64,000 bases of DNA, taken from positions 992,001-1,056,000 of the forward strand of contig NZ_CP035493.1 of NCBI RefSeq assembly GCF_004135385.1, read 5' to 3'. A program made the position numbers and the translations under genes. This stretch comes from Xylanimonas protaetiae (lineage in GTDB: Bacteria > Actinomycetota > Actinomycetes > Actinomycetales > Cellulomonadaceae). The notes under the pieces were generated by a model. That model searched no databases. It saw nothing but the letters and a program-made list of their open reading frames with translations, and was not told the origin of the DNA. Below are positions 1,967 to 59,370 of this stretch, one piece after another; positions within the stretch are counted from its first letter, which is position 1; every line of letters starts with the position of its first letter.

Positions 1967-2952
1967 CGGACCTCCTCGGCGAGGCGGAGCTGGCGGATGT
2001 TGTACCAGATGATCGGGATGACGAGCACGAAGAGCAGCACGGCGAGCGCGGCACCGAGCCCGGTGTTGAGCGACACGAACGACTGCCGGTAGAACTCGTT
2101 GGCGACGACGGACGTGCCGAACTGGCCACCCGTCGTCGTGCGCACGATGTCGAAGACCTTGAGCGTGGTGATGGCGATCGTCGTCAGCACGACGACGAGC
2201 GTCGGCCGGATACTGGGGATCGTGATGTACCGGAACATCCCCATGCCTGCGAGCCCGTCGAGGCGGGCGGCCTCGACGATGTCGTCCGGGATGGCCTTGA
2301 TCGCGGCCGACAGCAGCGTCATCGCGAACCCGGTCTGGATCCAGATCAGGATCACGATGAGGAAGAACGTGTTCCACGGCTGGTTGATGAGGAACTGCTG
2401 CGGCGGGATCCCGAGCCACACCAGCACCTGGTTGAGCAGGCCGACCTGCTGGATCTCGCCCTGGAGGGGCCGGAACTCGTAGACGAACCGCCAGATGATG
2501 CTGGCGCCCACCATGGAGATCGCCATCGGCAGGAAGATCAGCGCCTTCGCGAACCTCTCGAACCGGCTGCGGTCGACGACGACGGCGTACACGAGCCCGA
2601 CGAACGTCGCCACGACCGGCACGACCAGCACCCAGATGGCCGTGTTGCGCAGCACGAGCAGGAACTCGCTCGTGGTGAAGGCGGTGACGTAGTTGTCGAA
2701 CCCGACGAACCGCGTGCCGTCACGGTTCAGGAACGAGTTGCGGATCGTGTCGAGCGCCGGGTAGACGAGGCCGAACCCCAGGCCGAGGACCGGCAGCCCC
2801 AGGAACCCGAGCACCAGCACCCACTTCCTGGGGTTCTTCGGGCGGTCGACGAGGAAGAGGATCACGCCGACGACGACGACGAACAGGGCGATGGCGAACG
2901 CCATGAGCGTGAACTTCTGGGCCGGGCTGCCGGCCGCGGTGAGCCAGTCCAT
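1963..2952 (-). CDS. Carbohydrate ABC transporter permease (MalF/AglF-like)
   Basis: First permease of the importer, 329 residues, six or more membrane helices. Two N-terminal helices (about 12-33 and 44-66) precede the core, a layout seen in AglF/ThuF-type permeases. The EAA loop reads VEAARLDGLAGMGMFRYITI. It forms the translocation channel together with the MalG-like partner encoded immediately downstream (4-bp overlap), and lies 96 bp after the binding-protein gene in the same transcription unit. Substrate is probably an alpha- or beta-linked oligosaccharide; the exact sugar cannot be read from sequence. Confidence 0.9.
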   Translation of the reverse strand: MDWLTAAGSPAQKFTLMAFAIALFVVVVGVILFLVDRPKNPRKWVLVLGFLGLPVLGLGFGLVYPALDTIRNSFLNRDGTRFVGFDNYVTAFTTSEFLLVLRNTAIWVLVVPVVATFVGLVYAVVVDRSRFERFAKALIFLPMAISMVGASIIWRFVYEFRPLQGEIQQVGLLNQVLVWLGIPPQQFLINQPWNTFFLIVILIWIQTGFAMTLLSAAIKAIPDDIVEAARLDGLAGMGMFRYITIPSIRPTLVVVLTTIAITTLKVFDIVRTTTGGQFGTSVVANEFYRQSFVSLNTGLGAALAVLLFVLVIPIIWYNIRQLRLAEEVR

Positions 2953-56367: not shown

Positions 56368-57491
56368 CTACAGCGTCGCCGACGCCAGCGGCTCCGGGCG
56401 GCCCGCGACCGCGATCTCGATCCGGTCCACCGAGGCGAGCGGCACCGCCGACGACGCCCCCAGGCCCGTGACCTCGCCGCCCGCCGTCGTCCACGTCGCC
56501 GTGACGACGCGCGTGCCCGCCTGGTCGACGAGCACGAGCTCGTACGTGACGGGCTCCGGCGCGGCGGGACCGCCGTCCGGGCCGTACCCGGCGTCCGGCG
56601 GCGGGGTGCCCGATGGGCCGTCGTACCGGCAGCTCCACGCCAGGCGCGTGCCCCAGGCCATGGGCGTCGCCGTCAGGGTCGCACGCAGGCCCGTGCCGCC
56701 CACGGGCTGCAGCTCCACGTCGCGTGCGACCGCGGCGGCGGGCGGCGCCGTCGTGCCCGACGACGGCGGAGTCTCGTCGGACCACCAGCCCCCGCCCGCG
56801 AGGCCTCCGGCCACCCCGGCGACGACGGCGATGCCGGCGGCCGCGGCGACGAGCCCCCCGCGCCGCCGCGAGCGCCGCCGCCGGGCCGCGGCGGCGAGCG
56901 CGCTGATCGGGACGACGTCGGCGGGGGCGGCGGCGAGCGCGGTGCCGGGGAAGTCGCTACCTGGAACGCCCGTGGAGGCACCGGCAGCGAGCGCGGTGCG
57001 GACGCGGATGGCCGCGGCCGCGTCCACGCCGGAGACAGCCGCGCCAGAGACACCCGACACGTCGTCGTCGGGGACGCCAGAGGGGCCACCGAGGCCGGGG
57101 ACCGGGCCGTGGGCTCGGGCCCCCGGGCCCGAGCACCCGCACGGCCCGGCGCGGGCGCCCCGGCCCCGGTGGCGGACGTGGCCGGCTGCGAGCCCGACGA
57201 CGCGGACCCCGACGGCTGCGAGCCCGACGACGATGAGCCCGCCGACGGCGAGCCGTACGGGAGCGAGCCCGACGACGGCGAGCCGTACGGGAGCGAGCCC
57301 GACGACGGCGGGCCGTACGGGAGCGAGTCGAGCGGCACCGACGCGAGCAGCCCGGGCAGCGCCGCGAGCTCCGCGACGGCCGTGCGGCACGCCTCGCAGG
57401 TCCCCAGGTGGGCCGCGTACTCGCGGCGCTCGGCGGGGGCGAGGGCGCCCAGCACGTAGGCGGCGTCCCACTCCGCGTACCTGTCGGTCAT
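56368..57491 (-). pseudogene. Anti-sigma factor (RskA-like), apparently frameshifted by one missing base
   Basis: Membrane-spanning anti-sigma factor. Frame 1 gives the N-terminal zinc-binding anti-sigma domain with HLGTCEAC (H-x3-C-x2-C) and then three LPYGSPSSGS repeats (30-bp units at 57241-57330). Frame 2 gives a basic segment, a membrane helix (about residue 190) and the extracytoplasmic RskA domain ending ASVDRIEIAVAGRPEPLASA. Frames join at the C/G run 57120-57124 if one base is absent, giving about 374 residues. ATG at 57491 overlaps the sigma gene stop by 4 bp. It should hold the sigma factor inactive at the membrane. Confidence 0.8.
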
Positions 57492-58012
57492 GGCGTGACC
57501 CCCCTCTCCTGGAGCGACAGCCGCAGCGCGCGCAGCGCGTAGTGCATGCGGGACTTGACGGTGCCGGGCGGGATCTCGAGCTCGTCGGCGAGCTCCGCGA
57601 CCGACCGGCCCCCGTAGTACGCGCCGACGACGACCGCGCGGTGCTCCGCACTGAGGCCCGCGAGGGCGTCGGCGACGAGCCACTGGTCGAGCACCTCCTG
57701 CGTCCGGTCCGGCTCGGCCCGCTCGGGCACGACGCCGGTGGAGCGCTCGTGGGCGTGCCGGGCGCTGCGGTACTGGTCGACCACCAGGTGCCGGGCCACG
57801 GTGAACAGCCAGGCGCGGACGCTGTCCTCGGAGCGCTCGAGCACCTCCGGGTGCCGCCACGCGCGCAGCAGGGTCTCCTGCACGACGTCCTGCGCCTGCT
57901 CCTCGTCGCTCGTCAGGTGGCGCACGTAGCGCTGCAGCGCCGCGGCGTGCGTGCCGTGGACGGCGGCGAGCAGCGCGTCCCCCGTGGGCGGGCGGTGCCC
58001 CCGGCCGGGCAT
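57488..58012 (-). CDS. ECF sigma factor (SigK/SigL-like)
   Basis: 174 residues, only regions 2 and 4. Region 2 has [20 protein letters not shown] and [20 protein letters not shown]; region 4 has [20 protein letters not shown] with the [23 protein letters not shown]. It starts 1 bp after the yceI-family gene and overlaps its cognate anti-sigma gene by 4 bp. The operon promoter at 58729-58754 has the TGAACC-N16-CGTC form recognised by this sigma class, so it very likely activates its own operon and the facing COG4315 gene. Confidence 0.92.
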
Positions 58013-58013
58013 G

Positions 58014-58691
58014 TCAGCCTGCCGGCGCCAGGAGCAGGGAGAACTCGACCGACCCGGTGTGCTCCACCTCGACGAAGCCGAGGGACGGGGCCGCGACGTC
58101 GTAGTCCGCGAACGTGAGCGGGACGCTGCCGACCACCTGGACGGCGTCGTCGCCCTGCTGCCCGATCTCCGCCTCGACCGTGACCGGGCGGGTGACGCCG
58201 TGGATCGCGAGGTCGCCGGTGAGGTCGACGACGGTGGCGCCCGCGTCGAGCGTGGCGGGCTGGGTGAGGGTGAACGTGGCGGTCGGGAACTGGTCGGTGG
58301 CCAGCGCGGACGTGCGGAAGTAGAGGTCGCGGGGCGGCTGGTCGGTGTGGACCGACGTCATGTCGACCGTCACCGTGGCCTCGGTGAGCGCGCCGCCGTC
58401 GAGCGTCACGGACGCCTCGACCTGCTCGGTGCGGCCCGTGACGGTGGCGTGGTTGCCGCGCAGCACCTCGTCGACGCGGTACCCGGCGAACGATCCCGGC
58501 TGTGCCGTCCAGGTCCCGTCGAGCGAGGTCGGCTCGGCCAGGGCGTCCCCGGAGGCGTCGAGCACGGGCGCGGCCTCCGCGTTGCGGTTCTGCCAGTCGG
58601 CGTACAGGCCCGGCCCCCACACCACGCCCGCGACCACCACCGCCGCCAGCACCCCGCCGGCCCAGACCGCCACCTTGCCTCGCGTGCGCAC
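58014..58691 (-). CDS. YceI-family periplasmic/extracytoplasmic protein
   Basis: 225 residues. An N-terminal helix (about 7-26) anchors or exports it; the YceI lipocalin-like barrel follows: [20 protein letters not shown], then [26 protein letters not shown] and [13 protein letters not shown]. Family members bind long isoprenoids or amides. GTG at 58691 is the first start after the ECF promoter; 37 bp separate them. First gene of the yceI-sigma-anti-sigma operon, so the barrel protein is a product of the sigma response. Confidence 0.9.
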
Positions 58692-58728
58692 CGTCGTCCC
58701 CCTCCACGTCGTGCCCTCTCAGCACGAC

Positions 58729-58754
58729 GACGTCGGAACATGCTTCCTGGTTCA
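58729..58754 (-). promoter_or_regulatory. ECF-type promoter of the yceI-sigma-anti-sigma operon
   Basis: On the minus strand: -35 TGAACC (58754-58749), 16-bp spacer, -10 CGTC (58732-58729). It has no match to housekeeping elements and is identical in form and spacing to the promoter on the plus strand at 58804-58829. Confidence 0.78.
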
Positions 58755-58803
58755 GCTGTGCATCTTCAACTGTGCACCGATGTGCCCGGGACGGCGCCGC
58801 AGG

Positions 58804-58829
58804 TGAACCGCGCGGCCGCCGGCGCCGTC
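58804..58829 (+). promoter_or_regulatory. ECF-type promoter of the COG4315 lipoprotein gene
   Basis: -35 TGAACC (58804-58809), 16-bp spacer, -10 CGTC (58826-58829), 35 bp before the start codon at 58864. It faces the matching promoter of the sigma operon 50 bp away. Confidence 0.78.
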
Positions 58830-58863
58830 GTCGTAGGGGACGACAACGGAAGGGGACGAGAGC

Positions 58864-59370
58864 ATGCGCAAGGTGACCTACGCGCTCGCGGCGGCAGCCG
58901 TCGTGGCCGGGCTGGCGGGCTGCGCGAGCGGCAGCAGCGGCGACAGCGGCGACTCGGGCGCCACGGAGGCGCCGAGCGTCGCGGCGGGCACGGTGCTGAC
59001 CACGGCCGACAGCGACCTGGGGCGGATCGTCGTCGACAAGGACGGCATGGCCGTCTACGTCTTCGGCAAGGACACGCCCGGCTCGGGCGCGAGCGCCTGC
59101 ACGGGCGACTGCCTGGCGGCGTGGCCGCCCGTCCACGCGGACGGCGACACCCCGAAGGCGGAGGGCGTCACGGGCGACCTGGGCACCATCCAGGGCAACG
59201 ACGGCGAGCTCCAGGTCACGCTCGACGGGCGACCGCTCTACCTCTACGCGGGCGACGGCTCCCCCGGCGACGTCGCCGGCCAGGGGCTCAACGACCTCTG
59301 GTGGGTGCTGGCGCCGAGCGGCGAGGAGGTCACCCAGATGCCGACGACGAGCAGCATGCCGGGGTACTGA
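58864..59370 (+). CDS. Secreted-repeat (COG4315) lipoprotein
   Basis: 168 residues. Signal peptide with lipobox LAGC (Cys about residue 20), a Gly/Ser linker, then the two secreted-repeat motifs: [18 protein letters not shown] followed by [12 protein letters not shown], and [20 protein letters not shown] ending in [11 protein letters not shown]. The paired Cys in CTGDC and the aromatic LYLYAGD motif define the family; function is unknown, with proposed roles in redox or electron transfer at the envelope. ATG at 58864 has AAGGGGAC upstream. Likely member of the facing ECF regulon. Confidence 0.9.

Follow-up and report, generated by a model that had tools for sequence, protein, structure and literature searches.

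A divergent pair of putative SigL-type promoters between a yceI-led sigma factor operon and a COG4315 lipoprotein gene in Xylanimonas protaetiae

Gene content of the locus and the promoter pair

The window analyzed here is a 64,000-nt stretch of the Xylanimonas protaetiae genome. On its minus strand, a yceI gene, an extracytoplasmic function (ECF) sigma factor gene and an anti-sigma factor gene form a tight operon, and a COG4315-type lipoprotein gene lies on the plus strand beyond an intergenic gap (Table 1). Purine-rich ribosome-binding sites precede both yceI and the lipoprotein gene. The gap length presumes that the YceI-domain protein, which has a membrane or signal segment at its N-terminus, starts at GTG 58691, a codon with a good Shine-Dalgarno sequence.

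Table 1. Features of the yceI-sigL locus (window coordinates)
Feature	Position	Strand	Details
Zinc-finger (zf-HC2) anti-sigma gene	56368..57491	-	ATG at 57491; ATGA overlap with the sigma stop
SigL-type ECF sigma gene	57488..58012	-	174 aa; PF04542/PF04545
yceI, first gene of the sigma operon	58014..58691	-	225 aa, GTG start; PF04264 87 bits (cut-off 23.7)
Intergenic gap with divergent promoter pair	58692..58863		172 bp
Putative SigL-type promoter of the yceI-sigL-anti-sigma operon	58729..58754	-	-35 TGAACC 58754..58749, N16, CGTC 58732..58729
Putative SigL-type promoter of the COG4315 lipoprotein gene	58804..58829	+	-35 TGAACC 58804-58809, N16, CGTC 58826-58829
COG4315-type lipoprotein gene	58864..59370	+	168 aa; two PF03640 repeats; lipobox LAGC

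The sigma factor scored 219.8 bits (cut-off 202) against NCBIfam model NF007227 (PRK09645), which we take to be SigL, and its best PDB match was Mycobacterium tuberculosis SigL (6dv9_F, E 4.3e-50, nearly full length). The match to SigK was far weaker (76.6 bits against a cut-off of 226; PDB 4nqw, E 1e-11). Judged from its sequence, the ECF sigma factor, a stress-type regulator, is of the SigL type.

The anti-sigma factor matched zf-HC2 with 27.4 bits (cut-off 22.2), and its HLGTCEAC segment fits H-x3-C-x2-C; the counterpart in a relative (L032) matched RslA (3hug_B, E 1e-7). In the window, the zinc-finger half is encoded in one frame and the membrane helix plus C-terminal domain in another. 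The reading frame seems to shift in the linker, somewhere from about 57300 to 57040 (-), either within or beyond a tandem repeat of 15/30 bp (57188-57327) and close to a hairpin, GCTCGGGCCC-CC-GGGCCCGAGC. In congeners the gene is a single open frame of 241-341 aa, and in other relatives it is likewise an intact single ORF. Either the sequence is in error here, or the shift is genuine and would separate the membrane sensor from the inhibitor; regulation in this strain may therefore be abnormal. A separate irregularity was seen in a congener (L168, genome G575), whose SigL gene contains an in-frame TGA and is possibly a pseudogene or affected by a sequence error.

Besides the lipoprotein (99.5 bits), the genome encodes no PF03640 protein. 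Among 27 homologues, both cysteines of an SxCxGxC motif and several aromatic/Asp positions are invariant. Its AlphaFold2 model has a confident core (pLDDT above 90 in residues 41-150), and a Foldseek comparison of this model with the PDB returned no match with E <= 0.001 or Z >= 2. No description of COG4315 together with sigma factors was found in a literature search.

Identical TGAACC-N16-CGTC elements with the same spacing had been noted on both strands of the gap by an earlier sequence-only reading, and both are present. That reading had called them facing, which has to be corrected: with the -35 elements innermost and the -10 elements flanking them, the two promoters diverge back to back. 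The -35 hexamers are separated by 49 bp. Counted from the T that opens each TGAACC, the start codon is reached after 63 nt on the left and 60 nt on the right. Over the 64 kb (both strands), 0.16 matches were expected and three were observed, the third being at 2704-2729 (-) within an ABC-permease gene. In first-order Markov simulations of 172-bp gaps with matching composition, the probability of any match was 0.001, and matches on both strands occurred in 0 of 200,000 simulations.

Conservation of the element and regulon size

In the 3.86-Mb genome, the exact string has 28 matches (3 for a reversed-pattern control), 25 of which lie inside coding sequence; 24 of these fall in genes predicted from codon usage after training on the window, and one (L006) was added because the motif begins inside the start codon ATGAACCCC. 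Since nearly all matches are coding, the exact string alone is near background, and the genome scan was discarded as a regulon finder. The sequence-only reading had proposed such a scan both to list the regulon and as a test against random frequency. The string is indeed near chance genome-wide, but a literal use of this result would mislead, as the pair itself is strongly conserved. The case for the promoter pair rests on position and conservation, not on the string count. These coding matches are what speaks for a chance resemblance in a GC-rich gap, an explanation that is very improbable given the two-strand simulations and already contradicted by conservation in many genera.

The three non-coding matches are the window pair and one further site (L001 1501-1526, genome 84277-84302), an exact intergenic motif 57 bp before the gene of a 297-aa secreted FN3-type protein, which is a possible additional SigL target. 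The exact motif was absent near the other two YceI genes of the genome. A scan of relatives for the motif pattern revealed no other convincing target that the window genome has in common with them. A GH3 gene (L154/L241) with the motif in two genomes is a possible candidate, but the motif spans a G/C palindrome there. The conserved regulon seems small, local and confined to the window locus.

A species-genome collection, scanned with a four-sequence sigma alignment, yielded 80 SigL-type loci; they come from Promicromonosporaceae, Cellulomonas, many Microbacteriaceae, Arthrobacter, Nocardiopsis, Kribbella, Rhodococcus, Amycolatopsis, Nocardioides and Mycobacterium. TGAAC[CGT]-N16/17-CGT occurs within 1 kb upstream at 75 of them, with an opposite-strand copy at 33/80. 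Spacing is sharply defined: TGAACC-Nx-CGT was found 85 times with x = 16 and about twice with each of 23 other spacings. An N19 reading of the promoter was rejected, being accounted for by a CGTCGT repeat in the window's family. Mycobacterial loci (L107, L108) carry TGAACT-N16-CGTGTC at the corresponding upstream site. A second set of 90 loci from the window's family has the operon motif at 81. With both sets pooled, 156 of 170 sampled SigL-type loci have an upstream TGAAC[N]-N16/17-CGT; the sets overlap slightly, with a few genomes in common, and close relatives among them are not independent.

An order-wide scan of 396 genomes recovered the exact pair in the window genome and four others (reversed pattern, 0). 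Three of these four, in another family, are flanked by a SigL-type gene on one side and a COG4315 lipoprotein gene on the other. The fourth (L030, also in another family) was judged a chance match because its neighbours are enoyl-CoA-hydratase-like and transporter-like genes.

The -35 hexamers are mutually inverted, and at twelve loci, mostly of Microbacterium, they form GGTTCA-N2-TGAACC, which would suit a repeated operator, such as inverted TGAACC sites bound by a repressor, rather than promoters. Against an operator, the two -35 elements may be anywhere from 1 to 120 bp apart (78 loci, 2 bp being commonest) while the 16-bp spacing to CGT is fixed within each element; many operons have one element only; and reading frames usually begin 30-130 bp downstream of the element. 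We consider an operator very improbable, though slightly less so than chance. Because the fixed part is each promoter and not the distance between them, two separate promoters are indicated. With only 2 bp between the -35 elements, steric hindrance would seem to keep both promoters from being used at once. Eight loci with this compact bidirectional arrangement (L092, L094, L103, L104, L106, L109, L110 and L112) lead mostly to a DUF2231-like membrane protein.

Association with the lipoprotein and other divergent genes

Among the 90 family loci, the divergent motif is present at 30/30 with a divergent lipoprotein gene and at 14/60 others (Fisher p 2e-13, shared ancestry not corrected). A SigL match at E <= 1e-30 exists in 113 of the 221 genomes of the family. 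The lipoprotein occurs in 66 genomes, 62 of them among the 113 with SigL and 4 among the 108 without. By comparison of coordinates, the two genes adjoin in 57 of the 62 genomes having both.

The best control is provided by genomes in which the two genes are no longer neighbours. The lipoprotein gene of G533, G535 and G144 lies about 200 kb from sigL or on another contig, and TGAACC-N16-CGTG is kept before each. No such motif stands before the lipoprotein genes of G456, G474 and G476; a search for a close SigL found none in these genomes, which have just a more diverged sigma gene nearby. The diverged, unlinked lipoprotein of G563 lacks the motif too.

These cases bear on the alternative that the elements serve a different ECF sigma factor, or are shared by several, with the SigL-type factor not being the main user. 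GAAC-like -35 elements are a feature of many ECF sigma factors. Such factors also often share a liking for CG ahead of the -10 element (PMC6372665). The motif nevertheless follows SigL-type genes across genera, unlinked lipoproteins included, and is missing at lipoproteins of genomes that lack a close SigL. Use mainly by another sigma factor is therefore unlikely, although it is the strongest of the alternatives.

The published -35 element of M. tuberculosis SigL is TGAACC. The M. tuberculosis factor transcribes its own promoter in vitro, with a -10 consensus of TGN(C/A)AG and a preference for CG just upstream of T-12; His54 reads T-12, and Asp60 reads G-11, where G is strongly preferred (PMC6372665). 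This last preference speaks against SigL use in the window, where the -10 element is CGTC: both promoters in the window genome and its genus have C at -11 and the sigma factor has Arg60, unlike the CGTG and Asp60 of M. tuberculosis. His54 is kept. Sigma factors with Asp60 have G at -11 in 25/28 promoters, and those with Arg60 mostly have C. Arg60 thus fits a shifted -11 preference, with no code proven; a strict Arg60/C code was rejected because A, T or G also occur with Arg60. We regard Arg60 with C at -11 as a clade variant, Asp60/G-11 being a specificity detail of M. tuberculosis and not family-defining.

In loci without a divergent lipoprotein, the second promoter leads to other genes. It precedes Rieske proteins in Cryobacterium and L054 (loci L038, L039, L046 and L054), FMN-binding-domain proteins or lipoproteins (L041 and L105, with L049 just below the cut-off) and DUF2231 membrane proteins (L104, with L058 below the cut-off). 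Sigma operons of Kribbella start with DoxX. What the divergent genes share is that their products are exported or sit in the membrane, and several are redox proteins. As the zinc site of RslA is redox-sensitive (PMC2877774), an extracytoplasmic redox response is suggested, which is the weakest step of our interpretation. Extended to the Actinomycetota, SigL might be dedicated to switching on a module for extracytoplasmic redox reactions or electron transfer, in which a divergent pair drives the sigma operon (with YceI or DoxX) and an exchangeable exported or membrane protein, namely the COG4315 lipoprotein, a Rieske protein, an FMN-binding protein or DUF2231. We offer this generalization tentatively and think it somewhat more likely to be wrong than right.

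Proposed circuit and relation to known systems

We propose that both elements are promoters for the adjoining SigL-type sigma factor, which would drive its own operon and the lipoprotein gene (probability about 0.88). The earlier prediction to this effect gains support from comparison, namely the fixed N16 spacing in many genera, the 30/30 association and the three unlinked lipoproteins; with conservation and co-occurrence of motif, lipoprotein and SigL, autoregulation and lipoprotein control are well supported. By analogy with M. tuberculosis SigL/RslA, the zinc-finger anti-sigma factor would hold the sigma factor inactive until an envelope or redox signal frees it. SigL holoenzyme would then transcribe leftward through yceI-sigL-anti-sigma, giving positive feedback and more inhibitor, and rightward into the lipoprotein gene; sigma binding, both start sites, the signal and the functions of the outputs are predicted. 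The further claim that YceI and secreted-repeat proteins are linked in one response holds only in part: the genome has a single PF03640 protein, its other two YceI genes lack the motif, and the regulon appears local. A shared envelope, perhaps redox, response is our working hypothesis.

In SigL-RslA, transcription is sigma-dependent and release is signal-driven, through zinc loss and Rip1 cleavage. The present locus resembles this system in a sigma factor homologous over nearly its full length, a zinc-binding anti-sigma factor downstream, and TGAAC(C/T)-N16-CGT before its own operon or gene (as at the mycobacterial loci for SigL). It differs in that the operon begins with yceI and that a second, divergent promoter leads to a COG4315 lipoprotein. 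The described targets of M. tuberculosis SigL are cell-wall, polyketide and secreted-protein genes (PMC2877774, PMC10449499). SigK-RskA (ECF19) likewise pairs a membrane-anchored anti-sigma factor with an actinobacterial ECF sigma factor, but its structure is a much poorer match than that of SigL (E 1e-11 vs 4e-50). The autoregulated circuit type is thus known from Mycobacterium, and what is new is the predicted, conserved lipoprotein target and the variant -10 element.

COG4315 ("secreted repeat of unknown function") and Gram-positive YceI hereby gain a firm regulatory context, and therefore a testable condition of expression. The findings also suggest that the sigma/-11 base contact, defined structurally in M. 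tuberculosis, has a natural variant, and they suggest a simple rule by which a SigL-type gene together with TGAACC-N16-CGT may find envelope targets in many actinobacteria. If the redox module exists, COG4315 would act as a redox partner in the envelope, and its two invariant cysteines would have a function.
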